Below, piece after piece: positions 31,390-55,875 of a stretch of DNA of 64,000 nucleotides. Positions within the stretch are counted from its first letter, which is position 1. Each line of letters opens with the position of its first letter. The notes below the pieces were generated by a model. That model saw only the letters and a list, made by a program, of their open reading frames with translations. It had not been told where the DNA came from and did no database searches. The position numbers were made by a program, and so were the translations under genes. The stretch is from positions 248,001 to 312,000 of the forward strand of contig NZ_CP045455.1 in assembly GCF_030060925.1 (NCBI RefSeq). Reading direction: 5' to 3'. Origin of the DNA: Spiroplasma sp. SV19 (GTDB lineage: Bacteria; Bacillota_I; Bacilli_A; Mycoplasmatales; Mycoplasmataceae).

Positions 31390-31432
31390 TTGTTTTTTTT
31401 TTTTTTTTTTTTTGTCACAATTAAATTATAAA
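31390..31432 (+). promoter_or_regulatory. Poly-T promoter of the metalloprotease gene
   Basis: TTG is followed by 21 consecutive T (31393-31413), then the segment CACAATTAAATTATAAA with TATAAA at 31427-31432 as -10. The same segment with few changes follows T21-22 tracts before two lipoprotein genes (35459, 47577). The tract lies over the -35 region, 13 nt before the -10, where its length could set promoter activity. Confidence 0.6.
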
Positions 31433-31469
31433 AATGATGGCAATAAAAATGAAGGTAGCAGAATATTGT

Positions 31470-33122
31470 ATGAAAAAATTAATCAAAATATCAATAAAAC
31501 TAAAGTCAATGCTTTTAAGTTTAATTTTTAGTACAATAATAATCTTTCCTAACATAGTTATTATCAACAATGTTTCGCCTTATTATGTAAATAATTTTGA
31601 AATTAATCAAAATTTTAATCAAAATATTACTAGTAATATAAACCAATTTATGTATTCTGGTGAAATATTAGGGTATTTTATTTACAAATCGTCAAATATT
31701 AGTGAAAATGAAACGGTTGAAAAATTAGAAGAAAATATTATTAAAAACAAAACCATAATTTATTCTATGGCAGGTAATACAGATAATGTTACAATGCAGA
31801 ATACGGTTGCTTTTGAGACATCATTAATGGCATCAATTGTGAATATTAGTATTTATGGGATGACTAGTTGATCAGAGTTTTTTGCTGAAGCTTATTCAAA
31901 GTGAACAACAACGCCAACTGAAATGAAAAATAAGAGTTGAGAAATTTTAAATAACTTTTTTATTATCGTTTATCCAAAACTAAATCAACAATATTTTGGA
32001 TCACGAGATATGACATGACAAAATATTTTAAATTTTATTAATAATTATGTTAAAACGAATCCTATAATTTATGATACAGAATTAGCAGTTAAACCAACAA
32101 ATGCTGTTAATTTGAAATATGATGGCTTATTTGGTTTTCAACAAATTATTTCTAATAATGCAATAGAAAGGAATAATTATACTTTTAATGCTTTTAAAAC
32201 AGCTTTAATAGAATGACAAAATAATAATGATGGTAATAGTTTATTTAGTCATCATATAATTAATCAATATATTATTAATTATAATAACAATAATTTAAGT
32301 AATAATCTAGCAATGATGATGAATGATTCATATACTAAAGCATCAGATGAATCAATTAATAAATATAACACTTTGGTAAGTAAACTTCGAACAAAATATT
32401 ATTCATCTTTTGAAAATTTAGATCAAACCTTAAAACAACTTACTAATTTGTCCCAGAAAAATACGACAGATGTTAGTAGCATTATGTTAAAAGATGCTAT
32501 TGATGCAATGGGAAATCATTATAATTGAGCAGACAATAAAACAATCGCTTTTGCTGAACAAATTCTAAATTTATTTAATTTAACAAGTTATATAACAGAT
32601 AACAATTTTAAATATTATTTAAGGGCTTTTATTTTTACACCAGATTATCCAATCAGAGGCCAACTCGAAAATACACTGGGAGTTACTGCAACATATGGAC
32701 AAGTTATAGGCAATGATTATTTTCAATATTTTCTTTCAGTAGAATTTTCAACTGTCATCTTTACAGGTCTGGCATTTAATCAAAATAATATTGGTGATAT
32801 TAATCTTGATTATAAAAGTGGTTGATGAAGTTCACCAAGCATTTTTGCTACGTTAAATCATGAAATGGGGCACGTAATTGATGGTTATCATGGAACAGAA
32901 GCTGAATATCGAGCAGATTTAAAGAACAATTTTAATAATTATATGAAACAGCAAAAATTAGATAATTTTTATAATGGTAAGATTTTTGGATATCATCAAA
33001 TTGAAAGTGAAACAACCAAGAATTTAAAATTAATTTTAATAATAATTTTTACTGTTATTGCTTTTCCAATTTTAATTGTAAGTATTATTTTTTTATCAAA
33101 AAAAATTAAGAAGAGACATTAG
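31470..33122 (+). CDS. Membrane-anchored HExxH metalloprotease-like protein
   Basis: About 550 aa from ATG 31470; ATG 31434 is also in frame but lies at the predicted transcript start. An N-terminal hydrophobic signal-anchor (residues 13-33) and a C-terminal helix (about 520-543, followed by KKIKKRH) bracket a large extracellular domain. NHEMGHVIDGYHGTE holds HEMGH at residues 464-468, the zinc-protease signature, with a Glu 6 residues later as possible third ligand. Family not recognised beyond this. AAGGT precedes the chosen start. It stands alone after a poly-T promoter. Confidence 0.7.
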
Positions 33123-33195
33123 TTGTTTATGAAACTCAAAGTAATTGGGATTATTAGTTGGATGGTTAATTATGGTAGTAATATTAATTTAGTTT

Positions 33196-33224
33196 AAAAA
33201 AATAGGTAACAAACCTATTTTTTT
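33196..33224. terminator. Bidirectional terminator
   Basis: AAAAAAATAGGT (33196-33207), loop AACAA, ACCTATTTTTTT (33213-33224). It serves the metalloprotease gene and the convergent lipoprotein gene, whose stop codon lies within it. Confidence 0.9.
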
Positions 33225-33664
33225 ATTAATTGTAATTTGATAAAATCAGTTTTGCCTTTAAGCAATTGACTTTTTTCTTTTGCTGTTATGATAATATAAA
33301 TCAAGTGTTCTTTTTCTAAATTAATATCTATAAATGTATCTTTGATATCTTTAGTTTTAAAAATATTATATGTATAATCATTAGTTGGTGTAGCATATGG
33401 TTGAACTTTTTTGACTGCTTTATCAATGACTGCTTTATCAGGTTGATCTAATAATATTTTTATTTCTTTTCTATTTACTTTTGTAACATCAAAAACATCA
33501 TTAAGGTTTTTATCTTCAATATTATCACTATTAATTATTAATGGGTTAATTTCATTAATATTAGAAATATCTTTTATTTCTGGTAAATTATTACAACTAA
33601 CAATATTTGTAGTACTACCACAAATTACTGTTAAAATACTTACTAAACTTAATATCTTTTTCAT
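33215..33664 (-). CDS. Small lipoprotein
   Basis: 149 aa. The N-terminus MKKILSLVSILTVICG leads to lipobox NIVSC, so the mature protein starts at Cys 24. The rest is hydrophilic, Asp/Asn/Lys-rich, with VNRKEIKILLDQPDKAVIDK. No family recognised. AGAAAGGAA lies before the ATG. It follows the 33681 gene on the same strand after a gap of only 16 nt and probably shares its transcript. Confidence 0.7.
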   Translation of the reverse strand: MKKILSLVSILTVICGSTTNIVSCNNLPEIKDISNINEINPLIINSDNIEDKNLNDVFDVTKVNRKEIKILLDQPDKAVIDKAVKKVQPYATPTNDYTYNIFKTKDIKDTFIDINLEKEHLIYIIITAKEKSQLLKGKTDFIKLQLIKK

Positions 33665-33680
33665 TATTTTTATTTCCTTT

Positions 33681-35273
33681 CTAATAACAAATTATAAAAT
33701 CTTTAGTTTTTACAATAGTCTTAAATGTTAAATATCCTTCTCAAGTTTTTAGTTCTAAACTCGTAATAGTTATTGCATATTCTCAAGTTTTTGTAATTGT
33801 TATTTTTGTAGGATATAGTGGTCTTTGTTTGGGACAACTACCAGAAGTATTAATTAATTTTTTTTCCATGTCATTTGACCAGTAGTCAAAATCTTTTGGA
33901 TTTGTATTATCATATAGTGTTCTGTTTATGTTACTAATGATACGATGTGCTATATTAATATTTTCAATAGTATTTCATCTTTTTGTATTCATAATCTTGT
34001 TAAAGAAGTCTTCTCTAATTTCATATGTTATGTTTCCAACAAGATATGAATTAAACTGTTCTATATTTTTAATAAATGTTTGATTATTTACTACATAAGA
34101 AAAACCGTTATTATTGGTGTTAAAATTAATTTCAACTTTATACTTTTCAGTAATTTTTCTATATTCTCCATTTATCGATGATTTTTGTCATAAATATTGA
34201 ATTTTAGCATTATCTTTAATTTGATGCTCACTAAATAATCGCTTTCCTGGAAATTTTTGCGGGTTTGCTAAAATAATTTTATTTAGAAGATTAACGATTT
34301 CTGTTTTATTTAAATGTCTTTTTGATTTATCAAAATCAAATTTTCCTTCCATATCAAATGAATAAGCATCTGGGAAGATTTTAATTTTTCCTGTTAATTC
34401 AATTATTCGTGATTCAGAATTAATAACAATATTAACATTATTTTTAATTCGTAAAACAATGTTAATATTTTTATAAACATAATCATTTCAATGTTTAGCA
34501 TTGAGATTACCTTGTAAGTATTGAGGCATAATATTTTCATAATTATTATCTAATAATGCAATGTTAATATCATTTAAAGTAAAATGATAGTCTAATAATA
34601 ATTTGTTTAATTTATTAAGAATATTTTGTTTTGCCTGAATAATTAAATCCATAATATTTTTCGCACTGTTATTTTGATATTCTAAATTATCAATAGCTAA
34701 GTTTTTTCCTAAAAAGTAAACGATACTATTAGTTGTTACTACTTTACTTATAATTCCAACAGTGAAGGTAAAACTTGATCCAGGTAAAAAAATACTATTA
34801 TTTTCTCAATTATCATTAGTACTTATTTTTATTTGAATAATTCTTGTAAATGTTGTTATTTTTGGAACAAATTCTGTGAAATCAACTTTATTAATATTAA
34901 TTCCATTAATTGTAATTTGAATACTTGGCATACTTAAGATAAATTTATTAAAAAAGTAAATGGGGAGAATATTATTTTTACTATCTCCTTGTACATCTTT
35001 GCTCATTAAATCTTTGTTTAAAGCACTAATGATTTGTGTATAAATTTCATCACTGTCTTGATAATTATTAAAATTAATAGGAACTTTAAAATCTGGTTCT
35101 GTTATATCATTATGATAATATTTTTGTAATGTTGATAAGTCTATAATTTTACTAGTTCCATTTTTAATTTGAGGAACTAATGTCTGATTTGTATTATTAG
35201 TTTTTAAATTAACAATTTGTGTTGAAGCAATTGTTAAAGTCGCTGTTAATAAAACAGCTAGTAAGTGCTTCAT
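33681..35273 (-). CDS. Secreted protein with cleavable signal peptide
   Basis: 530 aa. MKHLLAVLLTATLTIASTQ is a signal peptide without a lipobox Cys, so export and cleavage by signal peptidase I is likely. The mature part is Asn/Lys/Ile-rich and beta-like, with repeated ITINGININ-type and LELKTWEGYLTF-type strands. It ends KDFIICY. Six TGA codons are Trp. AAAGGT precedes the ATG. No family is recognised; the overall character is that of a spiroplasma surface protein. Co-directional with the small lipoprotein downstream. Confidence 0.7.
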
Positions 35274-35369
35274 ACTGAAAGACCTTTTTCTATTTAGAGC
35301 CTCCTATTTTAATTTTATCATATTTTTAATAAATTCATATGTTTTAAATTTATATATTTAATTAAAAAA

Positions 35370-35432
35370 GGGATAATTGTTGTTATCTCAAATAAAATTT
35401 ATTGTTAAAAGTTCCAATTATTTCTTACCATC
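35370..35432 (+). repeat. 63-bp direct repeat, copy 1
   Basis: Begins GGGATAATTGTTGTTATC and ends TTTCTTACCATC. A copy in the same orientation lies at 57681-57743 with two differences by eye (61 of 63). It contains a small GGGATAA/TTATC dyad. It sits just upstream of the poly-T promoter of the first lipoprotein-family gene. Confidence 0.85.
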
Positions 35433-35458
35433 CGAAAACCCAACCTTAGGATATCCTC

Positions 35459-35518
35459 TTTTTTTTTTTTTTTTTTTTTTAAATACAATTAAAGTATAAA
35501 TCTTTTTTTTTTTTTTTT
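35459..35518 (+). promoter_or_regulatory. Double poly-T promoter of lipoprotein gene A
   Basis: T22 (35459-35480), then AAATACAATTAAAGTATAAA with TATAAA at 35495-35500, then a second run of 16 T (35503-35518) in the leader before AAAAGGGGGA. In the paralogue at 55903 the second run has only 6 T, and in the 47644 gene 5, so this tract has expanded. Confidence 0.65.
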
Positions 35519-35536
35519 GTAAAAGGGGGATCAAAA

Positions 35537-37113
35537 ATGAAAAATTGTTAACAGTTTTAACAAGTGTTAGTTTATTGGTACCAACGGTTAATATAATTAT
35601 TAGTTGCAATAGCAGACCAAAGTATGTTCCTGATGATGAGGATGATGCTGGACAAGGAGTAAACGATGTTGAAATTATCAATAAAATTATGACCAAGGTA
35701 TGAGAACGTTTTAAAGCATGATGAGATAAAAAAGCAACAATTGATATTAACATTTATCCTGATCAAATTACAAAATTTCAAGAATTAGTTACTCTTTTGA
35801 AAACAAATGATGGTGAAGTTTTAACTGGCAATGCAATTAATCAATATCGTTTTCTTGACCAATTAGTGACGGGATTTAAAGCAGAGTTTGACAATTTGAA
35901 TCGTGAAATTGCCAATGAATATTCTAATTTTTATATGGAAACTGTACCATTATCTGTAGAGCCAGATGATATTGCGTTTACGTTAAGTCATATTAATTTT
36001 GATAATTTGGCAAAATTAATGACTGTTAATGACAAGAGTATTATGGGAATTACAATTAAGTTTAAGATTTCATATCAAATTAAATTTAAAGATCTTGAAC
36101 AGCGTGATAGTACTGAAGGTTTCGTTGTCATTTGTAATGATGTTGAAGCTTTAAGTGGCATTCAAAAAAACCTTGAAAACTATTTTATTGCTTTTATTGA
36201 TGAGCTTTTTAAGAAGGAAAACTATCAAGTGATTGATAAAGTAAATCGTAGTTATAATAATATTGATTCATCAAATACTATTTGACCAGTTATTATAAAA
36301 GAATTAACAGAAAGAGGGATTTTATTTAAGGGATGATGCGTTTGAAGTTCTTTTTATAGTACTATGATTCTTACAGATGAGTTCTTCAAAGCCGATTCGG
36401 TCTTAAAATGAGCTGGTGAAGGTTACGATCCTAAAAAATTAACATCAGAAAAATTTCTGCAATTTTATAAAAATAAGTATTTTAATGCAAGAACTTTACC
36501 AGATTATTATGTGAAAGGAAATATTGCTTCTTTTGATCCAAGTAGTTTAACAATTGAAAATTTACCATTTAACAATAAGAAACCATATAAAAGTTTAAAA
36601 ACACCAATTAAAGTATTAATTGCAAAAGAATATGTTAATCAGGATTTAACTCAATTTGCTGAAATAACAATGAAGTTATGACAATATTATCAAATTGAAA
36701 CATATAATGATAAGCTTGTTTTTAAAGTAAACCAAGATGATTTTGATAATTTAATTAAAGTAACTGCTTCTTTTTCAGAAGATAAAAGTATTAGTGCTAA
36801 TTTATCACCAGTTTTTAGAAAAGTGTTTAATATATTTAAAGGTACATTAAGTTCAACGACAAATTGAAATACAAACATTTATTTTCCTACTTATATTGTT
36901 GAAAAACAAAAAGTTAATTTAGTAAAAGATCAAAAATCATTTGCTTTTCAATTGTTTAGAAAACAGGCTAAAAGTGGCTATTATCTACCAATGGATATTA
37001 ACTTTAGTTATAATAGTTTTGCTTATAGTTTTTTCTTTAAACCAAATGCGAATGAAACAAATACCGATAAGGGTGATGAATTTTTACAGACAATTGAATT
37101 TAAAGTTGTTTAA
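35537..37113 (+). pseudogene. Lipoprotein family member A, start frameshifted
   Basis: The ATG at 35537 is followed by five A, where the intact paralogue (55903) has six. The reading frame from this ATG stops at once (TAA). The body is open in the other frame from 35545 to 37113, about 522 codons: lipobox IISC, an acidic DDEDD segment, NREIANEYSNFYM, WAGEGYDPKKLTSEKF and a C-terminal EFLQTIEFKVV. TTG at 35545 could start translation but would lose the Lys residues of the signal peptide. Either a phase-off or dead copy, or an assembly indel. The body shows no other damage. Confidence 0.75.
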
Positions 37114-37162
37114 TTTTATTTATGGAATAATTAATTTTTTAATATTAAATTATTTTTATATA

Positions 37163-38320
37163 TGTAAGGTACCACACACATTTAAGACCAGTTAGTCTTT
37201 TAAATCTTTTAACACAGCTTCTGCCGGTGTTAAAAGATTTATACTTTTATGGCGTCGAACTTTGTTATAATAATCTAGAAAGATTACAATTTGTTTTCGA
37301 ATATCATCAATATCTTTAAGATATCTTGGTAAATATTCAAAAAACTTATTTCAATTACGATGAAATCTTTCAATTTTCCCATTTGACTGTGGGGAACGGA
37401 CAGGAGTTGTTTGATGGACAACTCCTTTTTTATTTACTGCTTTAGTAAACTCACTTTTATGATGTGCATAATTTGTTCGATGATTATAAACATATTCAAT
37501 CCCGTTATCTGTCCGAATTCTTTTCATTTTAATACCTATCTTATCAAATTCAAAATAAGCTTTTTGAAAAAGTCCTGCCGCAATATCTTGTGTTTTATTT
37601 TCCGTTATATAAGCTACTGCATACCGAGATTTGTCATCAATATAATCAAAAATATACAAATCTCTTTTATAACCTGTCATATTTTTAGTTAATACTTTAA
37701 CATCATGTGGGATATGCCCTAATTCATGCATTTCATAATGTTTATAAAATCTCTTTTTCCGTTTATTTTTAAAATATTGATTAAATGTTTTATCTCATTT
37801 CATTAATGTTTTAATATTATGTCTAATCGGCTTATTTTGATATGTAAAATAATTTGCCAATGTTAAATTATAAAACTCATAAATTCCTGTGCCATAATTT
37901 TCCCGATAATTTTTAATCATTTGTGCCACTTTCATTTTATAAGATTTATCATAAACATAATAAATAGTTTTTGGTTGTGTTGAATGTTTTTTAAATCACT
38001 CAAAACTATAAGAATTTTTTAAAAACTCTTTAATTTTGTTTGATCAATTGTAAAATGTTTGTTTTTCTCTATAAAATAATTTAATTAACTGATTTAATGA
38101 ATGGGTTTTAAGATAATATTTATGACATAAATTAAAATAATTCGATAAATTATTATAAATATAATTTGTTTCCTTAGTTGCTGCAACTTGCCCATATCAT
38201 TTTTTAAAACCACGATGTAATTTATATAATTCATTTTCACTAATAATACTTACTATCATTTTAAACCTCCTAATTTAATTTTAAAGATTTAGGTGGTCTT
38301 AAATGTGTATGGTTTTTACA
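37163..38320 (-). mobile_element. Complete IS element, IS481/IS3-like
   Basis: About 1158 bp. Terminal inverted repeats match 19 of 20: ACCACACACATTTAAGACCA (37171-37190) against the complement of 38294-38313. With one gap they extend to TGTAA/TTACA ends at 37163 and 38320. One intact transposase gene fills it. No clear target duplication is seen. It inserted between lipoprotein gene A and a small membrane-protein gene. Confidence 0.8.
37192..38259 (-). CDS. Transposase with DDE integrase core
   Basis: 355 aa, uninterrupted apart from TGA=Trp codons. The basic N-terminal half lacks an obvious family motif. The C-terminal rve core has the catalytic triad in IFDYIDDKSRYAV, RIRTDNGIEYV and SNGKIERFHRN, spaced as in the IS481/IS3 group. 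The end carries YYNKVRRHKSINLLTPAEAV, typical of the rve_3 tail. AGGAGG precedes the ATG. The first part of the core has MHELGHIPHDVK. Probably active. Confidence 0.85.
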
Positions 38321-38413
38321 ATTCTTCTAGTAAATAATATTTACTTTTATTAAAAAAAGAGTATAATATGTTTTGTATTTATTAAATTAGATAGAAAATA
38401 TATGAGGACTATG

Positions 38414-38914
38414 ATGCTACAGCAATTAAAGAAATCAATTATATTAGCCGATATTTTAAGTTTTACCTTTGGCTTTTTAGGTGTTACGTTTGGAATATTA
38501 AGTGTTTTAGCGTTAGAACCATTTTGAAGTATGGATAGTACTGTCCGTGATCATCAATCATTTGCTTTAACAGCCACAACAATTTGTTGTGATTTTTTAA
38601 GTGTTTTAAGTGCAATGATTGCTTATTATTATGGAGTAAAATTGTATAAAATAACTAAAAATGAAGACCGTTGTGATAAACCAGAAGTATTAAAATGTGA
38701 ACGTTATTCATTTTGTTGTGATTTTTGAAGCTTTATTTTTGGGATTGTTGGTTTAATTTTTGGGATTACTAGTTTTATAACATTATTTCCAGGTTTTTTA
38801 AATGAATATACATCATGATGAACAACAATAACTTCTGTTTGTTTTGATAGTGTGTCATGTGCTTTTGTGGGAGTAGCGATAGGATATTTTTGCAAAGGAA
38901 TTAAATTGTCATAA
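38414..38914 (+). CDS. Four-helix membrane protein
   Basis: 166 aa with hydrophobic segments at about 11-36, 52-75, 98-123 and 133-160, so probably four spans. Two halves look alike (FGFLGVTFGILSVL and FGIVGLIFGITSFI; TTICCDFLS and ERYSFCCDFWS), suggesting an internal duplication. GAGG lies 6 nt before ATG 38414; ATG 38402 and 38411 are in-frame alternatives. TATAAT at 38362-38367 is the likely -10, just outside the IS. No family recognised. Confidence 0.6.
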
Positions 38915-38954
38915 TTTAATTTAAAAACTATTTTTTTCATAATTATTTAGTTTA

Positions 38955-38978
38955 TAATAATAATAATAATAATAATAA
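38955..38978 (+). repeat. (TAA)8 microsatellite
   Basis: Eight perfect TAA units in the 38915-39423 gap, upstream of the decayed duplicate of the membrane-protein/GDSL locus. The rest of the gap is the remnant at 39015-39390 plus AT-rich sequence. Confidence 0.8.
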
Positions 38979-39014
38979 TTATGAAAATTTTAACTAAAAT
39001 AAAATAATTAAAAA

Positions 39015-39390
39015 AGTATTTAGTTTTTACTGATACTTGATTTAATAGTCGTTAAAAAGCAATAATTCTTAATTGCATAAACATTGATTAATATGATGAT
39101 AGACTTGATTTAATTGTATTTTATAAGAGTGCTACAGTTTAGTTTTATTCTTATGGTTGTTAGCACGCAAGTTCAGCAAGTGTTTAAGTGGGGCATTATC
39201 CAAATGTTTAATGCTGCTTTACATCATTATGTGCTTGTTCAATAAACAACTAATAATAAAAATAATTATCCTGATCAAATGGTGAAAATACAGGGGCCTA
39301 ATATTAATAGTTTAGTTGTAAATAAATCAATTAAAATATATTTTATCTTGTTAATAATTAATAAGGTTTAGTTTTTAAGTATGCAATTAT
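39015..39390 (+). pseudogene. Decayed copy of the membrane protein at 40766
   Basis: Nucleotide similarity to about 41080-41440 is visible by eye (ACATTGATTTATATAAT-like, TTTACATCATCATG-like and TTTAGTTGTAAATAAATCAAT segments), but the frame is full of stops and indels. It stands directly before a GDSL lipoprotein copy, as the intact gene does at 40766-42804. This is therefore the left half of a tandem duplication that has decayed. Confidence 0.75.
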
Positions 39391-39423
39391 AATTATTAAA
39401 AATTAATTAAGGAGGAAATCTAT

Positions 39424-40540
39424 ATGAAAAAAATTTTTAGATTATTAACTGCTTTTGTTTTAACAACAGTTAAGCAGTGTTACGGTAATTAGCTGTACAG
39501 TTCAAGATGTTCAGTTTGATTTAAATGATGCACTATTATTAATTGGAAAAGATATTGATACATCAAAAGCAATTGATGATGCTGAAAGTAATTTAGAATT
39601 TACAAATTATTATATTTTAGGGGATAGTTTAAGTGATTCTCACGGACTTGAAAAATTAATGAAAAAAGGCTTAGATGCTAATTTTAAATTGGGAACTGAT
39701 GATAAAACCAAGTTAGACGATTATCAATATGGAAGTTTTAGTAATGGTAAGACGGCTGGGGTTTTATTAAATGATAAATTAGGTTTTAAGGACATTAATC
39801 CAGGGATTCCACACGATACAGATCCTACTAAGTTTGGTCGTAATTATGCGATTGCTGGGGCTACTGCTGCTGATGTTATTGGAATAGAAGGTTTTTTATT
39901 AAACCAAGTTACGATTGAGAAGCAAGCTCGTGCTTTAGTTAGCCAACATAAATTACGAGAAACTGATTTAGTTTTTATGGAAATTGGTGGAAATGATTTA
40001 TTTCAATTAATTAAAACTCCTGATTCTCAAAAAGATGCAGAATTAATGAAACAAGGTGTTGAACGAATCCAAGAAGCACTATTTACATTGTTAAATAATG
40101 GGATTAGAAAAATTATTTTTTCTGATGCACCAAATGTTAGTTTAGTACCACGTTATGTTAATGGTGATGCTACGTTAAAACAACGGGCAAATGATTTTTC
40201 GACCCAATTTCATGGTCAGGTTAAAAATGTGATTGAAGTAGCTAATCGCTATTATAAGCATGCTGTTCGAAAATGAGGATATTATGATAATTTGCCAGTT
40301 TTAATGGAAGAATTTAAGGCTAAACATGCAAACGCTGAACTTAAGGTTAATTTTAATCTTTTAGATATAGATTTTAAAAATATTTTACAAACAGGTGTTT
40401 TACATGCAAAACGAAACTCTAATATTCCTGCTGATGCAGGTATTGATAATTATTTCTTTTTTGATGATTTTCATCCAACGCGTGAAGTTCATCAGTTAGC
40501 AATGGAACATTATTATGAGATAATAAAGGGATGAACGTAA
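39424..40540 (+). pseudogene. GDSL-hydrolase lipoprotein, copy 1, signal peptide frameshifted
   Basis: About 75-80 percent like the intact copy at 41689 by eye. The signal peptide starts normally (MKKIFRLLTAFVLTTV), but one extra base near 39470-39478 shifts the frame into a TAG before the lipobox. The body is open in the next frame to 40540. All GDSL blocks are kept: YILGDSLSDSHG, GRNYAIAGATAAD, MEIGGNDLF and DDFHPTREVH. ATG 39659 would give a protein lacking the catalytic Ser. AAGGAGGAA precedes the ATG. Confidence 0.75.
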
Positions 40541-40581
40541 GATAAAAAAGTTATCAGATATTGTAAAAAATAACGTGTCTT

Positions 40582-40614
40582 AAAAAAATGACAAAAAAAT
40601 AATGTCATTTTTTT
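40582..40614 (+). terminator. Terminator after GDSL copy 1
   Basis: AAAAAAATGACA (40582-40593), a 9-nt loop, TGTCATTTTTTT (40603-40614). Confidence 0.85.
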
Positions 40615-40765
40615 AATTTTTGTTTAATTAATTTTATGAGTTCTTTTATTAAATTTTAAAAACCACTTTCTTTTTATAATTATTTGGTTATAATAATGAT
40701 AACTAAATTTGATGGGTTTATCTTATCTTTAAAAATAATTATATAAAATGAGAAGGAAAAATAAG

Positions 40766-41671: not shown

Positions 41672-41688
41672 TAAAGGAGAAAATATGA

Positions 41689-42804: not shown

Positions 42805-42805
42805 A

Positions 42806-44783: not shown

Positions 44784-44791
44784 ATTATTTG

Positions 44792-44830: not shown

Positions 44831-44876
44831 GAATCTTGGTATAATAGTAAAAGAAGGAAATGAGGGTTTTTAAATA

Positions 44877-46536: not shown

Positions 46537-46578
46537 TTTTATAATTAAAGGTAGATAGTTAGAAAGGAAGAAGGTTAT

Positions 46579-47472
46579 ATGAATCTTTTTAAAAAATATC
46601 CTTATGTTATTACCGATTTAGATGGAACAATAGCCGGTGAAGGTTATGTAATTAATGAAGAAACTTATGAAGCTTTACAAACATACCAGTTAGTTAGTGA
46701 TTATCATTTGTTTTTAGCATCTGGTCGGTTGGACTTAATGGCAAAAGAATATTTTGCAAAATTAAAAATTAAAACACCAATTATTTCTTGTAATGGTGCT
46801 TTAATTCGAGATCCTATTAGCAATGAAGTTTTATATCAACAGACCTTATCGCAAGATTTAGCAATTAAAATTCTTACGATGGCATTAGAACATGATATTG
46901 ATCATATTGTTTATACAGCAAGTATGATTTATGGTCATCCTCATTCAAAACGAATTGCCTTGATGATGAAATATAATGAACAATTAGTTGATAATAATTA
47001 TCAGATCCCATTAGATACTGAAACAAATTATTTAGAATTATTAAAAAATAATGATATTCAAGTTTTAAAAATTTTATTTCCATTTAACTCGACAGCCGAA
47101 TTAGACCGTGTTCAGTTTATTAATGAACCATTTAAAGATCAAATTGAAGGAGTATTTTCACAAAAAGACTTGTTTGATATTCAAGCATTAAATATCAATA
47201 AAGGAAATGCTTTTAAAAAATTATGTGAATTAAAAGGATATGATCCTCATCAATTTATTTTTTATGGAGATAATTACAATGATATTGAACTTGCGAAAAG
47301 TGTTGGTTATACTGTGGCAATGGGGAATAGTGTCTTAGAATTAAAAAAAATTGCTAATTCAACAACAACTTCTGTTGTTGATAATGGTGTTCGTGAACAC
47401 CTTTTTACCGAAGTATTATCCAAAGAACAAATTGCTGAGTTTTTACCACAAGTTAAAAATGTTTTTAAGTAA
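46579..47472 (+). CDS. Cof-type HAD hydrolase
   Basis: 297 aa. Motif I TDLDGTIAG has Asp 13 and 15. LASGR holds motif II. NKGNAFKKLCELKG and IFYGDNYNDIELAKSVGYTVAMGN are motifs III and IV with the Cof-type cap between. The family dephosphorylates sugar phosphates, flavin or other small phosphates; the substrate cannot be read here. AGAAAGGAAG precedes the ATG. It follows yqeH by 42 nt and ends at a terminator. Confidence 0.85.
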   Translation: MNLFKKYPYVITDLDGTIAGEGYVINEETYEALQTYQLVSDYHLFLASGRLDLMAKEYFAKLKIKTPIISCNGALIRDPISNEVLYQQTLSQDLAIKILTMALEHDIDHIVYTASMIYGHPHSKRIALMMKYNEQLVDNNYQIPLDTETNYLELLKNNDIQVLKILFPFNSTAELDRVQFINEPFKDQIEGVFSQKDLFDIQALNINKGNAFKKLCELKGYDPHQFIFYGDNYNDIELAKSVGYTVAMGNSVLELKKIANSTTTSVVDNGVREHLFTEVLSKEQIAEFLPQVKNVFK

Positions 47473-47483
47473 AACATTTTTTT
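47456..47483 (+). terminator. Terminator of the yqeG-yqeH-HAD group
   Basis: AAAATGTTTT (47456-47465), loop TAAGT, AAAACATTTT (47471-47480), then T. The stop codon lies in the loop and right arm. Confidence 0.75.
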
Positions 47484-47576
47484 ATTTTTAAGAAATTATT
47501 TTTTTGTTCTCACTTAGAAGTACACATCCTCCCAAAATTAATAGTTTAATTCTACATAAAAACAAAGTATACCCAC

Positions 47577-47617
47577 TTTTTTTTTTTTTTTTTTTTTAAA
47601 TACAATTAAAGTATAAA
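47577..47617 (+). promoter_or_regulatory. Poly-T promoter of lipoprotein gene C
   Basis: T21 (47577-47597) followed by AAATACAATTAAAGTATAAA with TATAAA at 47612-47617. The segment is identical to the one after the T22 tract at 35459, with the same 14-nt spacing from tract to -10. The leader then has AGAGAGGG. Confidence 0.65.
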
Positions 47618-47643
47618 TAATTTTTACAAGAGAGGGTTAAAAT

Positions 47644-49245
47644 ATGAAAAAAGTATTGGCTTTATTAGGAACTTGTTCCTTGATAACAACGGGAGTTACA
47701 ACAGTTATTAGTTGCTCAACTAAACCAGATGTTAATCCTGCTGAAGATGATAATGATATTAGAAAAGATTTAGATGTGTTATTATCAATTATGAACGAAG
47801 CTCATACAGCATTTCTAAATTATGCAAATGAAAAAGCCGTTCTTAATATTGACGATTATAAAATTCCGGAGTTAAATCAATTATTTGGTTTAGTTAATTC
47901 AAGTAAAAAAGAAGATGACTTGGATTTAAAAACTGTTTTTGGTGAACAAATAAATAATTTTTTTGAAAATAATTTTAAATCAGTTTTTGACAATATTAAT
48001 CGACAAATTGCCAATGAATATTCTAATTATTATGTTGACTCAATGCCGTTTACTTTTAAAACTAGTCCTTCAACTCTAAAAGTGAATTATGTTGATTTAA
48101 CACAATTAGAAAAATTAACCACAGAACCAATTAAGGATTTAAAAGCAGTTGTGGTAAATTATAGTTTTGGTTATACGGGATCATTTAAAACATTAACTAA
48201 TCCAACAAGATTTAACATTAAATATGTTATTACAAATAATCCTAATTTGATTAAAACGTTAATGCTTGATTTAACTAATAAAATTGGAAAAGTTTTAATT
48301 GATTTTATTAATAAGAATCCTGAAATTATCATTGACCAAAATGTCGCTTTTAAAGAAACATATGAAAAGTTTAGTGTTTATTACAAACATGATACAACAT
48401 TAATTAATAAAAATATGTTAACTTTTTTAGATGCCATGTTTAAAGACAATGCTGTGACAAAGGAAATTATGGAATCAGTAAATTATGATTCTACTCAAGA
48501 TATTTTAGATTTACAAACTGCGACAATAAATAATGAAAATAGTATTAATGTAAATTTACCAGATTGACGAATGAAATATCAAACTCCAGCTGCATGAGCG
48601 GGATCAGGAAAACAGCCTGCTGGTTTAACGCCTGAGAATTTTGTTAAATTTTATCGATCAAATATGAAAATTTTTGAAGATACAAGTAAAGACTTAACTT
48701 TGGCAACTTTTAGTATTAATTTTAACAAAATAATTGTTGCTGGGTTGCCATTGTTAGCAAGTGGTTTTAATGATAATAAACCGTTAATGGTTCAAATCAA
48801 CATATCACAAAATGGTTTAACAACAAAATTAACTAACTTCGGAAATATTATTGTTGCACTTCTTAAATATTATAATGTTGATTTAAAAGTATTAGGTTGA
48901 ACTAGTTTTTATATTTCAAAAAGTTTATTTGATGAAGTTGAAACACGCTGAAAAGGTAAAAATCTTGTAAATCTTGCAGATGTTTATAATAGACTTTTAC
49001 AAGATTTTAAACAAAGTGATATTGCTAAAACTTTGCTAGATCTTGAATTATTTTCTATACAAAATTTTCGCTCTTATTGGATAAAACTAGATTTTAACTA
49101 TGCATCTACAGGAGCTCGTAGTTTTTCAATACAAAATGCTGCTATGTGATGAAGTTTAGGTTTTGGGTTTGGACATTCAAAGAATAGTGCTATCGTATAT
49201 ACTGCATGAACATTTTGACAACAGAAATTAGGTTTTGTTTCTTAA
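47644..49245 (+). CDS. Lipoprotein family member C
   Basis: 533 aa. Signal MKKVLALLGTCSLITTG with lipobox VISC. It shares NRQIANEYSNYYVDSMPF and the WAGSG ... LTPENFVKFY block with members A and B, so all belong to one paralogous family. The rest differs more, which is typical of diversified surface antigens. The last 224 codons are nearly identical to the truncated cassette at 54108. Nine or more TGA=Trp codons. Function unknown; surface exposure inferred from the signal. Confidence 0.8.
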
Positions 49246-49299
49246 CTTAAGTGAGAATTATTCAGAACCTATAACTTTCTTTAATAAAGAAAAATAGAA

Positions 49300-49328
49300 A
49301 AGAAATATTTTTAAAATATTTCTTTTTT
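49300..49328 (+). terminator. Terminator of lipoprotein gene C
   Basis: AAGAAATATT (49300-49309), loop TTTAA, AATATTTCTT (49315-49324), T run. Confidence 0.65.
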
Positions 49329-49418
49329 GTTATTACATATAGAATTTAAAAAACCTATAATCATAGGTATTTTATTTAAATTGAGTCTTGCTATTATTGA
49401 TGTGAAGGGGGGATTTAT

Positions 49419-51086
49419 ATCAAAAAAATTGATTGAAATAATTATCTTCAAGATTTCTATGAAGCAGTTGGTGGTAAAGAAAATATTAAAGAATGTTTTC
49501 ATTGTGCAACAAGATTTCGTTTTTATGTAAAAGATATCACTTTAGTAAATGTATCAAAATTAAAACAGATTGAACTTTTCAAAGGATACAATTGCGTTGA
49601 TAATCAACATCAATTGATAATTGGTACCGGTCTTGTTGATAAATTTTATAAGGTCTATAAATTAAATGAAACTAATATTTCAGATCCATTTGATAACAAA
49701 GTAAAAGAAAAATTATGAAGAAAGGAATTAAATTTTAAAACTAATATTTTTATGGTGACAAAAAAAGGGTTAAATTCATTTTCCACAATTTTTGTTCCTC
49801 TAATTCCTGTTTTTATTGCAGGGGGAATGTCGCTAGCGTTAATGTCTCTTGTTAAGTCCATAACACCTACTTCCGGGTTTATTAAATTATTTGATGTTAT
49901 TGGTGGAGCAATTTTAGGTTCGATTCCTGTGTTTGTGGGATATACGACCGCGAAAAAAATGGGGGCAAATCCATTTCTAGGAGTTGCGATGGGGTTAATA
50001 TTAATATCACCAGGATTATTAAATCGCTATGCAACTAATACGCCAATTTTATTAGAATTTAATATAAATGCTGATCAGGAGATTATTGATAAAGCAATTC
50101 ATAAGGCATGATTAAATTATTTATTAGAGATGGGAATTGATCCATTAAATCCTCCTACAAATATTATTATTCCGAAAGAAAACGAAATTGTTGGTATATA
50201 TTACACAATATTTACTGGCTTTTTTAAAATTAAATTAGTTGGATATCAGGCTCAAATTGTCCCAATTTTATTAGTGTTATTATTGTCGTGTTCATTAGAA
50301 AAATTAATGCGAAAATTTGTTCCTGATGTTATTGGAATAATTATTGTTCCATTGGGAACTGTAATAATTTCAACATGATTAGCATTTTGAGTAATAGGAC
50401 CATTAGGTGAGATTATTGGGAGAGGTCTTTCCATAGGATTACAAGCAATCTTTAAATATACCAATTGAAATATGATTGGTTTTGGGGGAGCATTATTTGC
50501 TGGGATTTATCCATTTCTAGTTGTAACTGGTTTACACCAAGGATTTTTACCAATAGAAACCCAACTAATTGTTGATTCACAATTACATTATGGTCATACA
50601 TTTACATTTATTACACCAATTGCATGTGTTTCTAATATTGCCCAAGGAACAGCTGCATTAATGTTTATCTTTTTTACTAAAGAAAAAAAAGAAAAATCAC
50701 AGGGGCTTTCAGGAGTTATTGGGGCATATACCGGAATAACCGAACCTGCAATGTTTGGAATAAATTTACAAGTTAAACCATTATTTATATCTGCAGCAAT
50801 TGGGGCAATGGTTGGTGGTTGATGACTTGGAATGAGTCATACCGTTGCAAATTCCTTAGGTAGTGCATCATGAATTGGTCTTGTTCAATTTGATTGAACA
50901 ACAACACATACAAGGCAATTTTTTGAGCAAAATAATATTAACTCTATTTTGCAAAATGTTCCTATGGGTGGACATGCTATTATTGCGATGAGCATTTCAA
51001 CAATTGTAACAGCAGGAACTGCATTTGGACTATTAAAAACAAAATGAGGTAAAGAAAGTTTAAAACAGCATTTAAAAAATAAGTAA
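49419..51086 (+). CDS. scrA: PTS EIIBC, sucrose/beta-glucoside family
   Basis: About 555 aa. The EIIB domain has YEAVGGKENIKECFHCATRF, with the phospho-Cys in CATRF. EIIC follows from about residue 110, with VPLIPVFIAGGM and the family motif GAYTGITEPAMFGINLQVKP. No EIIA is fused, as in ScrA and TreB. A GntR regulator and a GH32 hydrolase downstream make sucrose the likely sugar. No ATG, GTG or TTG start fits: behind GAAGGGGGG the in-frame candidate is ATC at 49419 (or ATT at 49428). The gene may have lost its ATG. Confidence 0.75.
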
Positions 51087-51111
51087 AATATATTTATCAG
51101 GAGGTAAATAT

Positions 51112-51811
51112 ATGACAACTAGCAAAAAATGAAATATTATATTTGATTATTTAATGTTATTAATTAGAGAAAATAGAGTTAAAAATGGTGAAACTTTACC
51201 AAGTCAGCAATTTTTAAAAACTAAATTTCATTTTTCTGAACAACCAATTAAAAGGGCATTTAATAAATTGATTGAACTACAACTTGTAAAAGCCGTCAAT
51301 GGGAAAGGATTTGTAGTTATGGATAAATTAACAAATAATAATTTATTTAGTTTTAGAGAATTATATCCAAACGCCATCAGTTCATATTATGCTTTTAAAA
51401 TTCATGAAATGAATTCAAAGTTTAAAAATTTATTTAATATCAAGACAAATCATAAATTCCTGCATTTTAAATGTAATAGAAAAATTGATGATAAAATTAT
51501 TGTTTATCAAGAAAGCTTTTTAAATTTAAATTATTTTCAAAGTTTTAATGAAAAATACTTAAAAGATAATGGTTTATTCAAATATATTGAAAATATTACA
51601 AAATTAAAAATAAGTCATGTTTCAAAAAAATTTTTTATATGGATGAAAAATGAATAAGGATTTATCAACATATTTTGATACAGCAAATATTTCATGTTCA
51701 ATAGTAGATGTTGGTAAAACATATGAAATATATGGTGATATTGTTGAATATAGAATTAGTTATTATAATCCATATTATTTTAAATGAAGTTTTATTGAAT
51801 GAAGACAATAA
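51112..51811 (+). pseudogene. GntR/UTRA-family regulator, frameshifted
   Basis: The N-terminal winged helix is intact (NGETLPSQQFLKTKFHFSEQPIKRAFNKL). The frame ends at 51657, in the middle of the UTRA effector domain. With one A fewer in the AAAAA at 51646-51650 the frame continues as MNKDLSTYFDTANIS to 51811, ending IVEYRISYYNPYYFKWSF, a normal UTRA end. The second part could also restart at ATG 51650. A strong AGGAGG precedes 51112. As the local sugar regulator, its loss would alter control of the sucrose genes. Confidence 0.75.
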
Positions 51812-51820
51812 AGGAGCACT

Positions 51821-53244
51821 ATGAAAAAGAAACCAACAAATTTTCTAAATGAAAATGATTTAATTTTATTTGAAGAAATGCATATTGAAAAAGAAAAGGA
51901 CTGATATACTAATCAATTTCACTTATCATCATTTTCAGGGCTTATCAATGACCCTAATGGTTTAATTAAAGTTAATGATATATATTATATTTTTATGCAA
52001 AATGTTCCATATTCATCAGAACATAAGAAAAAATCATGATGTTTATATACAACAAAAAATTTTATTGATTATAAATATGAAGGAATCGTAGTTACTCCAA
52101 GTTGTAAATTTGATCAAGATGGTACTTTTTCAGGGAGTGCAGAATATAATAATGGTTTTGAAATTTTTTATACAGGAAATGTTAAAATAGGAAATAAAAA
52201 AAGAACAGCATATACAATTAATGCAAAAATTGATTTCCTCAATAAAAGAACAATTAAAAAAATCCTTTTTGAAGAGGACCTGACAAAATATTCGGGACAT
52301 TTTCGGGACCCTATCATAATCAGAAAGGGGATTAATAAATTTATGCTAAATGGTGCTCAGACAAAAGATAATAATGGTGTTATAAGTATATATAAATTTA
52401 TAAAAGATAAATGATTATTTATTCGTAATGAAGAACTTAATTTAAAGGAAGAATTACCAAATTATATGCTTGAGTGTCCAAATTATTTAAATTATAATGG
52501 ATATGAAGCAATTATATTTTGTGCAGAAAGATATCATTCACTAAATGATGGAGGACATTTTGTCTATTATAAAACTTTAACAATTGATGAGCATTTTAAT
52601 CTTTCAAACTTGTCAAATCTTTCTAAATTAGATTATGGGTTTGATTTTTATGCTCCACAAATTTTTCAAAATTCAAATAAAAAAATGCTAATGGGATGAT
52701 TAGGAAATTCGGCTTCTAATTTAAAACATTCCAAAGTATGAAACTATCAGTTAACAATACCTAGAGAGATTTTTATCGCAAATAATAAAATTTATCAAAA
52801 TCCAATTGAAGAACTTGAACAACTAAGAGTTAGGGAAATTAAGAATAATCACTATAATAATGGATTATTTGAGATTATTGCAAATAATATTTTAGATAAT
52901 TTTGAAATTATAATTAAAAATCCCCAAACTAAAAAAATTATTATTAGTTATTCAAATAACATTTTTAAAATTGACAGAAGTAATTGTGATTATAATGATA
53001 TTAATAATTTACCTCCTGTAATTAAAAAGAAAATATAGTTATTAAAACGATTAGAATTTTGGTAGATCGAAGTTGCATGGAAATATTTATAAATAATGGC
53101 ATATTTGTTTTTAGTGTTAGATTTTTTATTATGAAGCATAATAAGATAATCCATAATCTGAAAAATTATAAAATATATCAATTAAAACCATATAATATTA
53201 TTTCTAAAAATAATATTATCTTTGATCAAATTTTGGAAAACTAA
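51821..53244 (+). pseudogene. scrB: GH32 sucrose-6-phosphate hydrolase, C-terminus frameshifted
   Basis: The five-bladed catalytic domain is complete: LINDPNG with nucleophile Asp 44, GHFRDP with Asp 163, and LECPNY with Glu 218 as acid/base. The frame stops at 53036-53038 (TAG) in an A-rich stretch. The conserved end of the beta-sandwich domain (LVDRSCMEIFINNG) continues in another frame to 53244. A one-base loss near 53024-53033 explains it. The catalytic part might still fold. AAAGGAG precedes the ATG. Product would cleave sucrose-6-phosphate made by the EIIBC. Confidence 0.78.
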
Positions 53245-53310
53245 TTTAAAAGGACACTTGTTAAATCTCCATATAAAAAAGGGGATAATAAATTATAAAT
53301 AAAGAGAATG

Positions 53311-53340
53311 AAATAGGATTAGTTTTAATCCTATTTTTTT
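53311..53340 (+). terminator. Terminator of the sucrose operon
   Basis: AAATAGGATTA (53311-53321), loop GTTT, TAATCCTATTT (53326-53336), then T. Confidence 0.85.
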
Positions 53341-53379
53341 AATTGTGATATTGTTGATATACATTATGTTTGTATCAAT

Positions 53380-53505
53380 AGTTATTTATTACCAACATTA
53401 ATTACTTTTAATGCAGGGAAATTAGTGTATGACACAAGAGACGATGTAATTGCAACTTTAGTAGGAGGAAACATTTTAAAATATTATATATTTCGGTATA
53501 ATTAA
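53380..53505 (+). pseudogene. PTS EIIC fragment, possibly mannitol type
   Basis: In one frame the sequence reads SYLLPTLITFNAGKLVYDTR followed by DDVIATLVGG. This resembles the region LLPLIIGYTGGK...RGGVVGAIAT of mannitol EIIC. There is no start, no upstream continuation, and a stop at 53503. A relic of a lost sugar transporter is the best reading, at modest confidence. Confidence 0.4.
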
Positions 53506-53529
53506 TTATATTAAAGAAGGATAAAAACT

Positions 53530-54045
53530 ATGGAAATTCGAACAATTAAAGAACACAAAAAAGAAGAGACAAGAGAACTTATTTTTGAAGCATTTAATAC
53601 TAATGATAAGAAAGATGTTATTGAACATATTTTAGTTGATAATTTAAGATTATTACCTGAGTATGATGCATCGTTTGATGTTGTTGCTATTATTAATAAT
53701 CAAATTGTTGGACATGCTTTTTTAAGCACTGTTACAATTAATGATAATAATAACTTACTTTGTTTAGCACCAATTGCAGTTAAGAAAGAATATCAAGGAC
53801 AAAAGATTGGAACTCAATTAATTAAATTTTTAGAAACTAAAGCAACTGAAAAGGGGTATCAAGCAATTTTTATTTTAGGAGACCCACAGTATTATTCAAA
53901 ATTTAATTATGTTCCTGCTGTTAATTATGAGATTAAAGCTCCTTTTGAAATTGATGATAAATATTTTATGGTGAAAGAGTTATATTTAAATAGTTTATCT
54001 AATATTACTGGAACGTTACAATATTCACCACCATTTCGAACTTAA
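53530..54045 (+). CDS. GNAT-family N-acetyltransferase
   Basis: 171 aa, complete. The acetyl-CoA loop is VKKEYQGQKIGTQLIKFLE near residues 97-115. GYQAIFILGDPQYYSKFNYVP near 125-145 is typical of the YhbS-like branch. AAAGAAGG stands 10 nt before the ATG. It lies between the sucrose operon and the truncated lipoprotein cassette without close partners. Substrate unknown. Confidence 0.85.
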   Translation: MEIRTIKEHKKEETRELIFEAFNTNDKKDVIEHILVDNLRLLPEYDASFDVVAIINNQIVGHAFLSTVTINDNNNLLCLAPIAVKKEYQGQKIGTQLIKFLETKATEKGYQAIFILGDPQYYSKFNYVPAVNYEIKAPFEIDDKYFMVKELYLNSLSNITGTLQYSPPFRT

Positions 54046-54107
54046 TTAAAATTGTTTTTAGGAAATCAATGGTTGTTGGATTTGAACTGTCTTAAAAGAT
54101 AGGATGA

Positions 54108-54778
54108 AATATCAGACTTCAGTTGCATGAGCAGGGTCAGGAAAACAACCTGTTGGTTTAACGCCGGAAAATTTTGTTAAGTTTTATCAATCAAATATGA
54201 AAATTTTTGAAGATACAAGTAAGGACTTAATTTTGGGAACTTTTAGTATTAATTTTAATAAAATAATTGTTGCTGGTTTACCACTGTTAGCAAGTGGTTT
54301 TAATGATAATAAACCATTAATGATTCAAATTAACATATCACAAAATGGTTTAACAACAAAATTAACTAGCTTCGGAAATATTATTGTTGCATTTCTTAAA
54401 TATTATAATGTTGATTTAAAATTATTAGGTTGAAGTACCTTTTATATTTCAAGAAGTTTATTTGATGAAGTCGAAAAACGCTGAAAAGGTAAAAATCTTG
54501 TAAATCTTGCAGATGTTTATAATAGACTTTTACAAGATTTTAAACAAAGTGATATTGCTAAAACTTTGCCAGATCTTGAATTATTTTCTCTGCAAAATTT
54601 TCGCTCTTATTGGGTAAAACTAGATTTTAACTATGCATCTACAGGAAGTCGTAGTTTTTCAATACAAAATGTTACTATGTGATGAAGTTTAGGCTTTAGT
54701 TTTGGACATTCAAAGCATAGTGCTATCGTATATACTGCATGAACATTCTGAAATCAAAAATTAGGTTTTTCTTCTTAA
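54108..54778 (+). pseudogene. Truncated 3' cassette of lipoprotein member C
   Basis: 224 codons matching the C-terminal end of the 47644 gene, from WAGSGKQPVGLTPENFVKFY to the stop, over 90 percent identical by eye. The similarity also extends about 50 nt past the stop. It has no promoter, ribosome site or signal peptide, and similarity ends sharply at about 54108. Changes include NFNKI retained, TSFYISKS to STFYISRS and GFVS to GFSS. It looks like a silent donor that could exchange sequence with the expressed gene. Confidence 0.8.
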
Positions 54779-54795
54779 ACTTAAGTAAGAATTGT

Positions 54796-55690
54796 TCAGA
54801 ACTTATAACTTTCTTTATTAAAGAAAAATAATTTGTTAATATTAGGATAGAGAAATTCACATTTAAATCGACTATGTTCGCTTTCTTTAACAGCATTATC
54901 TAATGGCGTTCCGACATTAGAGAAATCTAAGGTAATATTGTTATTGGCACAAAAATTTCTCATTTTTTGGCAGATATGTACGCTTGCTTGATCTAGGAGG
55001 AGGAGTAGACCATTTAGATCTTTTTTATTTTTCTTAATAGCTTTTTTAATTGTGTTTATTATTAAATTACTATCATTTTTTTGAATAAATAACTTGGCAT
55101 AATTTTCTATCATATAAATCCTGAATAGAACAGCGATAATAGATTTCCTTAGTAGTTTTTTGAATAATAAATGTTACATCTAATACTCATATTTTATTTT
55201 TTTTTGGTAAATTTTAAAATTACGATTTAATTGGTTTAATTCATAATTTTGTACAAAAATTGGTTGATCATTACTGGATTTAGATTTAATTTTTCTTTTT
55301 ATTTTGTAAAAACTTGGATATATATCATATTTTTGTTTAATTCGTTTGACAACTCCTTTGGACATATAGTTACCAGCAGGTTTTTCGGTAGTAGAAAACG
55401 AATTTAATTGTTCGTATTTTTGATGTTTTATTATTAAATTAGCACCTAGGGCATTGAAATTTTATTTTTGCATTTTTATTAGTTTTTGATATCTTGCTTC
55501 ATCTTTATACTCTAATTTTGTTGATTTTTTATATTGTAGTAATATGTTGATTTAGAAATATTGAGGAGTTTAAAAATCTTTCGTTTATTTAAAGAATATT
55601 TTTCAGTTAAGATTTTGATTGTTTTAATGGTTTCTTTTTGATTGATTTTAAACTCCGATATAGCTTTTTAATAAATCTATTTCCTCATCT
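54796..55690 (-). pseudogene. IS3-family transposase remnant
   Basis: On the minus strand, pieces of orfA/orfB survive in several frames. ETIKTIKILTEKYSLNKRKI (near 55560-55620) is the N-terminal part of orfB. SKGVVKRIKQKYDIYPSFYK follows. LLLLLDQASVHICQKMRNFC and GTPLDNAVKESEHSRFKCEF are the rve core. Stops and frameshifts break it. Its last codons run into the post-stop repeat of the lipoprotein cassette, so the IS 3' end is missing. Confidence 0.7.
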
Positions 55691-55816
55691 TTTTTAATTG
55701 ATTATGCAGTTTTATTTCAATTGATAATTTTTTTATATTTTATCATTATGAATAATGTGTCCGGATTTTTAGTAAGGAAGCACTTATATAAACATGATTA
55801 AACAAAGATGACCCTC

Positions 55817-55875
55817 TTGTTTTTTTTTTTTTTTTTTTTTAAATATAATAATAAATATAATAATTAAAATATAAA
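55817..55875 (+). promoter_or_regulatory. Poly-T promoter of lipoprotein gene B
   Basis: TTG, then T21 (55820-55840), then AAATATAATAATAAATATAA and ATAATTAAAATATAAA. Possible -10 boxes are TATAAT at 55844-55849 and TATAAA at 55870-55875. Compared with the promoters at 35459 and 47577 there is an extra AT-rich insert of about 15 nt. Confidence 0.6.

Follow-up and report, generated by a model that had tools for sequence, protein, structure and literature searches.

Long poly-T tracts as putative variable-length promoter spacers across a Spiroplasma genome

Long runs of T stand in front of genes throughout the chromosome of Spiroplasma sp. SV19, and most of the gene-facing ones probably act as hypermutable spacers of sigma-70-type promoters, through which slipped-strand change would switch the genes independently of one another. 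The tracts lie in a preferred direction relative to gene starts, carry paired -35-like and -10-like flanks and differ in length between copies and between species, in a genome where no match to MutS is found. An earlier note had described four of them in a window of 64,000 nt (positions 248,001 to 312,000 of contig NZ_CP045455.1), which is part of a single contig of 1,456,516 bp; we refer to this genome as G000 and to its relatives by codes of the same form.

The SV19 genome contains 66 tracts of at least T12, 44 on the forward and 22 on the reverse strand, dispersed over the chromosome. The same 66 are recovered at a threshold of T15, so tracts of T12 to T14 are absent. Run lengths were counted in 221,732 bases that comprise the DNA around all 66 tracts plus the window: there are five runs of 9, none of 10-14, 64 of 15-25 and one each of T34 and T36. 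A geometric extrapolation from the shorter runs predicts 0.19 tracts of 15 or more in these bases, or about one per genome when scaled; the number actually present vastly exceeds what chance would give. The tracts are also oriented: within 150 nt, a gene start (called from a ribosome-binding site matching at 4 of 6 and an open reading frame (ORF) of at least 80) is found on the T-strand side of 40/66 tracts and on the A-strand side of 5/66.

Both edges of the tracts carry promoter-like signals. At a gap of -1 to 6 nt from the 3' end, TATAAT is present at 18/66 tracts, compared with 3, 1 and 0 at control positions (gaps of 30-37 and 60-67, and upstream); when one mismatch is allowed, the count rises to 36/66 versus 8, 2 and 4. 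For all further counts the -10 was scored with a wider set of hexamers at a gap of -1 to 4, and a TTG was scored if 0-2 bases separated it from the 5' end, the two ends being scored independently of each other. By this measure 35 of the 66 tracts have a -10, and TTG adjoins the 5' edge of 22 of these 35 but of only 3 of the 31 others (Fisher p 9e-6; background 7% in upstream DNA). Among the SV19 tracts with a -10, TTG is never seen at offsets 3-9; every instance falls at 0-2. The link is found in tracts that lack an upstream terminator-like hairpin (13/21 vs 2/21, p 0.0009) as well as in those that have one (9/14 vs 1/10, p 0.013), and again among 40 tracts of G010, a related species (14/20 with a -10 vs 4/20 without, p 0.004). 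Because TTG at the 5' edge is tied to the -10 at the 3' edge, the natural reading of the arrangement TTG(C)-Tn-TATAAT is that the tract forms the spacer between a -35 and a -10. Predicted spacers measure 13-26 nt in SV19, where 11/22 fall at 15-18 nt and 10 at 16-18 nt (that of the tract at genome position 757156 is 13 or 18, depending on the hexamer chosen), and 13-17 nt in G010 and G004.

Tract length changes readily between paralogues, as the earlier note had argued, and also between orthologues and, in print, between near-identical isolates. Among 18 SV19 tracts whose two flanks both align with G010, 17 have an orthologue of another length, flank identity at the conserved positions being about 80-96%. 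Within SV19, none of 19 paralogue pairs shares a tract length (the pairs overlap and are not independent, and a few may be chance matches), and four promoters of G012 with an identical 46-nt downstream flank have T18, T15, T15 and T14. G010 is probably Spiroplasma sp. NBRC 100390, which differs from the near-identical TU-14 (its genome is described in the available part of PMC5256206) by 18 changes, 15 of them 1-bp insertions or deletions (indels), all in homopolymeric intergenic regions (PMC5347229). That report names no sites; we infer that the indels lie in the T16-T18 tracts, because all other A or T runs in 57 kb of G010, in stretches chosen around tracts, are shorter than 9. A MutS_I match was found in 0/25 family genomes, SV19 included, and the accessible portion of PMC8208695 describes mutS and mutL as absent across Spiroplasma.

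Within the window there are six T-runs of at least T12 (T21, T21, T22, T16, T21 and T21), all on the + strand; every further run of A or T is shorter than 10 (Table 1). The four tracts singled out by the earlier note, at 31393, 35459, 47577 and 55820, exist with the lengths given (T21, T22, T21 and T21), and the T16 in a leader had been mentioned as well; the T21 at 13123 had been missed. Its orthologue in G010 is T18 with both flanks aligned, and it is not promoter-like by the scoring rules used. In keeping with the note, the sites look like promoters of one design, and NACAATTAAAKTATAAA is common to three of them (31416-31432, 35484-35500 and 47601-47617); by the sequence layout, the tract takes up the interval between -35 and -10. 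The note misplaced the -10, however, as TATAAA 13-14 nt from the tract: the hexamer whose distance from the tract is nearly constant is TACAAT, TATAAT or CACAAT, which stands 2-3 nt past it in all four. The fourth promoter does contain the extra bases that had set it apart, but it is regular, because TATAAT sits 3 nt past the tract and the extra bases follow downstream. CACAAT lies outside the -10 set used for counting, and the 31393 tract was accordingly scored as having TTG only. At 35459 the G of the TTG may have been lost to the T-run, because the flanks of the paralogues at genome positions 303820 (window 55820), 472467 and 757156 read CCCTC-TTG-Tn. The optimal spacing between -35 and -10 is 17 nt, and the spacers predicted at 31393 and 55820 lie off that optimum, at 20 and 21 nt. 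A consensus promoter scan of 31200-36000 gave 61 sites against a chance mean of 45, and neither promoter tract of that interval was among the 60 sites listed.

Table 1. Tracts, candidate promoter elements and genes. Positions refer to the window unless a genome is named.
Feature	Position	Strand	Remark
T21 tract	13123..13143	+	88-aa ORF (13193-13459) downstream; 3' edge without -10
Candidate -35, TTG adjoining 5' edge of tract	31390..31392	+	TTG enrichment
T21 tract, predicted spacer	31393..31413	+	
Candidate -10, CACAAT	31416..31421	+	2 nt past tract; predicted spacer 20
562-aa membrane-type protein with HEMGH, metalloprotease-like	31434..33122	+	ATG at 31470 is a possible start
T22 tract, predicted spacer	35459..35480	+	flank CCTC without TTG
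Candidate -10, TACAAT	35484..35489	+	3 nt past tract
T16 tract within predicted leader	35503..35518	+	
Lipoprotein gene, frame broken four codons on from the start of the ATG (A5 run)	35537..37113	+	open from TTG 35545
T21 tract, predicted spacer	47577..47597	+	flank CCAC without TTG
Candidate -10, TACAAT	47601..47606	+	3 nt past tract
533-aa lipoprotein, family member	47644..49245	+	
Candidate -35, TTG adjoining 5' edge of tract	55817..55819	+	
T21 tract, predicted spacer	55820..55840	+	
Candidate -10, TATAAT	55844..55849	+	3 nt past tract; predicted spacer 21
521-aa lipoprotein, family member	55903..57468	+	
Tracts following a hairpin, examples	G000 81316, 523724, 1041138, 1084971, 928471		
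N-terminal CxxC family loci	L004, L037 (G000 70828, 706456); L160, L161 (G004); L175-L177 (G006)		

We propose the following mechanism. The -35 would be TTG(C) at the 5' edge, and 15-25 T's would separate it from a -10 that consists of TATAAT, or a sequence close to it, at most about 4 nt from the 3' edge. In cells that lack MutS, slippage during replication would lengthen or shorten the run of T's; promoters with spacers near 17 nt would be strong and those that depart from this length in either direction weak, so that each gene would flip between high and low expression on its own. Chief among the targets would be a large paralogous lipoprotein family together with other envelope, transport, regulatory and DNA-modification genes. 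Promoter activity, its ON/OFF dependence on tract length and a use in phase variation are thus predictions from the layout of the sequence. The 'coordinated' variation suggested by the earlier note finds no evidence, because every tract is its own site.

Lipoprotein genes are prominent among the genes behind the tracts, as had been claimed: a tract starting less than 220 nt upstream is carried by 14/20 of the listed SV19 members of one family that have an N-terminus, and by 12/23 in G010 and 9/17 in G012. The fraction is 2/10 in G004 (T15+ tracts only), 1/6 in G005 (35 of 40 entries, with contig C4 left out) and 0/10 in G002; for G010, G012, G005 and G002 the tracts compared are those among the rows listed. 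The family itself is present in 14/14 genus genomes by alignment-based search. Its products have an LP_plasma signal peptide and weak MOLPALP/spiralin N-terminal matches in Pfam and NCBIfam searches; an AlphaFold model of the 55903 product (seven rows, mean pLDDT 62) gave no match at E <= 0.001 in a Foldseek search of the PDB. By a signal-peptide rule, a lipoprotein lies downstream of 12/22 tracts with both TTG and -10 versus 12/44 others (p 0.056), with paired tracts before one gene counted twice and the frame-broken copies at 283459 and 1455053 left out. Surface genes are not the sole targets that the earlier note took them to be, since tracts also precede exporter, phosphotransferase system (PTS), GntR-type regulator and DNA methyltransferase genes. 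Products with Pfam support include ATP-binding cassette (ABC) exporters, GntR-UTRA, PTS EIIA and an N6 methylase, and further PTS IIB, SIS, phosphoribosyltransferase, DUF402 and another ABC ATPase. Several non-lipoprotein products stand behind tracts without promoter signals, among them those of an hpt-like gene and of one that we take, from its sequence, to be uvrC-like. Nor does ACAATTAAAKTATAAA work as a general signature; it marks a paralogue set of SV19 instead. A search of 36 genomes returned seven sites in SV19 and one in a far relative, and the reversed control gave 1, in SV19. Six of the seven SV19 sites stand at tracts, and the seventh (L129) has none.

Several points weigh against the tracts being switchable spacers. 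The -10 set and the gap window were fixed after the sequences had been seen. The link between TTG and -10 is weaker in G010 when split by hairpin (p 0.032 and 0.070), is not significant in the 38 tracts of G004 (p 0.058; 0.42 and 0.10 by hairpin), and in the 23 tracts of G006, few of them promoter-like, its p of 0.024 derives from 2 tracts with both signals. In SV19, 31/66 tracts have no adjoining -10, some of these having orthologous tracts in G010, and gene starts within 150 nt are not significantly more frequent at tracts that have a -10 than at the others (24/35 vs 16/31, p 0.21). Three window promoters deviate, those at 35459 and 47577 by lacking TTG and that at 31393 by having CACAAT, and a hexamer of T's inside a long tract, at any length, may itself act as the -35. 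Where lengths are tight across a whole species, as with T16-18 in G010, a mutational set-point seems likelier than selected states. Differences between isolates do not always fall in homopolymers either, because two sequencings of S. turonicum differ, according to the available part of PMC5034139, by 12 single-nucleotide polymorphisms and one homopolymer indel. The strongest counter-evidence comes from vpma of Mycoplasma agalactiae. As in SV19, a T-tract lies immediately upstream of the -10 of a lipoprotein gene, and it gave no OFF variants; unlike here, there is a single promoter, varied by Xer1 recombination in which the T-tract has no part (passages of PMC2268961).

The vpma result also speaks for the alternative that the tracts are parts of promoters and not switches: the T-run would be a stiff, A-tract-like stand-in for the -35, and expression would hardly respond to drift in its length. 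Set-point lengths within +-1 in G004 and G010 fit such a role, as do the 13 of 35 SV19 tracts with a -10 that have no TTG. The placement of TTG exactly at the 5' edge, tied to the 3' -10, nevertheless suggests that both ends matter, and the SV19 lengths range from 15 to 36; we consider this alternative unlikely, if worth keeping in view. A terminator origin, in which the T-run of the preceding gene was over-expanded by slippage and neighbouring promoters are incidental, draws on the hairpins (minimum free energy <= -6) that abut the 5' edge of 24/66 tracts, compared with 6.8 in shuffles and 1/66 on the A-strand side. The other 42/66 have no such hairpin, though, and the pairing of TTG and -10 persists there (13/21 vs 2/21); in the lipoprotein family, moreover, the distance to the start codon is tight, tracts starting 59-83 nt upstream in 13 of the 14 tract-bearing SV19 members. 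We give this origin little credence as a general account. With terminator-like hairpins directly ahead of roughly one tract in three, a single tract may even end one transcript and space the next promoter at once.

A neutral origin is very improbable. It would hold that past about 10 T's repair-less slippage drives runs to a fixed length and that functionless tracts persist at intergenic AT-rich places, in keeping with the absence of runs of 12-14 from SV19, the similar lengths (by eye) of promoter-like and other tracts, and the tracts without a -10 that are also common to G010; it sits badly with the direction bias (40 vs 5 of 66), with the adjacency of the -10 and its pairing with TTG, and with positions conserved at about 80-96% flank identity. 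That the lengths are base-calling noise of the assemblies is scarcely credible: homopolymer indels of another Spiroplasma were treated as likely assembly artefacts (available part of PMC12408004) and NBRC 100390 was called by mapping to TU-14 (PMC5347229), but a second species, G010, has long tracts at the same positions, and NBRC 100390 and TU-14 were sequenced from 301-bp Illumina reads to depths of about 300- and 269-fold, with inspection by eye (PMC5347229 and the accessible part of PMC5256206), although exact tract lengths may be off by one or more.

The proposal that most gene-facing tracts are hypermutable promoter spacers can be set beside the slipped-strand systems of mycoplasmas. By sequence, a repeat lies between -35 and -10 in 22/35 cases, two of the four tracts of the earlier note being without TTG, and repeat number differs between alike copies or isolates. 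Surface lipoproteins are targets in the listed family (14/20), yet they make up 12/22 of the tracts with TTG and -10. In its strict form the vlp arrangement of Mycoplasma hyorhinis has a sense-strand A-run, which the SV19 tracts do not reproduce: the run here is of T, with gene starts on the A side at 5/66. The Mycoplasma mycoides cluster belongs to the Spiroplasma group, and the repeat of maa2 in Mycoplasma arthritidis is a T-run. The vlp promoters (Citti and Wise 1995, as cited in available passages of PMC10502178 and PMC2268961) resemble those of SV19 in having a homopolymer in the -35/-10 spacer before a lipoprotein family, where indels switch transcription; they differ in their A-run, single gene family and demonstrated switching, whereas SV19 offers a T-run, 66 dispersed tracts, many gene types and a predicted switching. 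In the vmm or poly-TA promoters of the M. mycoides cluster, repeat number before lipoprotein genes likewise varies between strains, but the repeat is the dinucleotide TA, at five positions in PG1 and six in 95010 (accessible text of PMC3053259). For maa2, spacer indels switch a surface protein gene as proposed here, although for a single gene (cited in passages of PMC2268961). Upstream A/T runs 8-25 long are known from Mycoplasma hyopneumoniae, for which the available portion of PMC5179023 reports no paired -35/-10 geometry. The mechanism is likely one known from mycoplasmas, here in a genome-wide set common to relatives.

T15+ tracts occur in 41/60 genomes of the order, SV19 included. In 60 family genomes, T15+ closely followed by TATAAT gives 66 sites versus 7 for the reversed pattern, with at least one site in 23/60 genomes and 4/12 genera. 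Lengths are narrowly distributed in several relatives: T15 x5, T16 x27 and T17 x6 in G004 (38 tracts of 38), T16 x2, T17 x28 and T18 x10 in G010 (40 tracts of 44), T15-18 in G006 (23 of the 26 T15+ tracts in the genome) and, by eye among the rows listed, about T14-T19 in G035, G070 and G077, which belong to another genus. In G012 and G005 the shortest, judged by eye, are about T13, and one tract approaches T50. The Drosophila symbiont S. poulsonii is poor in tracts: four of six loci show T7, T7, T8 and T8-G-T7 where relatives carry a tract, the other two (L232 and L233) contain no T-run of 9 or more, and the record has 5 listed tracts of at least T11. G002, whose matches fit the positions of loci L233 and L234 and which we therefore take to be S. 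poulsonii MSRO_BK, has 4 tracts of at least T15.

No description of genome-wide phase variation of this kind in Spiroplasma was found among the papers listed by full-text searches of the open-licence literature. Tentatively, with confidence that stops short of even, we suggest that in spiroplasmas without mismatch repair the poly-T spacer serves as a contingency element of general use, in which tracts kept near a set-point let unlinked promoters vary independently and heritably, and that S. poulsonii has either lost most copies of this element or never had them in number. If so, about 20-35 unlinked promoters would be involved in tract-rich species (tracts with a -10 number 35 in SV19 and 20 each in G010 and G004), around a genome-specific set-point of about 16-17 T's in G004, G006 and G010 and about 20 in SV19. 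Lipoproteins, ABC exporters, sugar uptake, a regulator and a DNA methyltransferase would then vary, and one clone would hold very many states. Should tract length set expression, phase variation in Spiroplasma would span the whole genome. It could then underlie both the variability of surface phenotypes and the outcomes of symbiosis in insect hosts, which produce no antibodies. Indels in the tracts, sometimes set aside as assembly noise (available part of PMC12408004), would on the same premise be the fastest functional changes in the genome.

Around the window promoters, the product of 31434-33122 has hydrophobic segments near both ends (by eye), and a Pfam search with it gave no match. The lipoprotein encoded behind 55820 shares 65% identity with the one behind 35459 and 24% with the one behind 47577; at least five other lipoproteins of the window have no tract. 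The gene behind 35459 reads ATG AAA AAT TGT TAA, with A5 after the ATG and A6 in most listed paralogues; its frame break and extra leader T16 may reflect decay or may form a second switch. Besides this copy (window 35537-35551), one other lipoprotein copy, that of the promoter at G000 1455053, has its frame broken within a few codons of the ATG. The upstream half 'aaacaaagA..taccctc(TTG)' of the promoter at G000 1328422, before an unrelated gene, is common to the lipoprotein promoters at 182774, 303820 and 472467, as if promoter halves had been shuffled at the poly-T.

DNA methyltransferase-like genes with upstream tracts occur in three species (G000 1192341/1192361, L186 of G006 and L144 of G004), the SV19 gene with Pfam support and the other two judged by eye; phase-variable modification is possible. 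Three species likewise have tracts upstream of a family, its likeness judged by eye, whose members carry an N-terminal CxxC; one SV19 copy has a propeller-type Pfam match. G005, G012 and S. poulsonii (1180634, 1190001) contain a repeated cassette, by eye, in which a T-tract is followed by GTTTTAATTAATTTGTGGTAATTG...ATTACCAC-TTTTT or close variants; such a tract followed by a short hairpin is perhaps a small RNA. In G070 and G077 together, a count by eye gives over 20 copies of a tract with ATAATcattgATATCAATTTGAATTG or a close variant behind it, as well as repeated tract sites about 1.25 kb away, which suggests tract promoters on a multicopy or mobile family.

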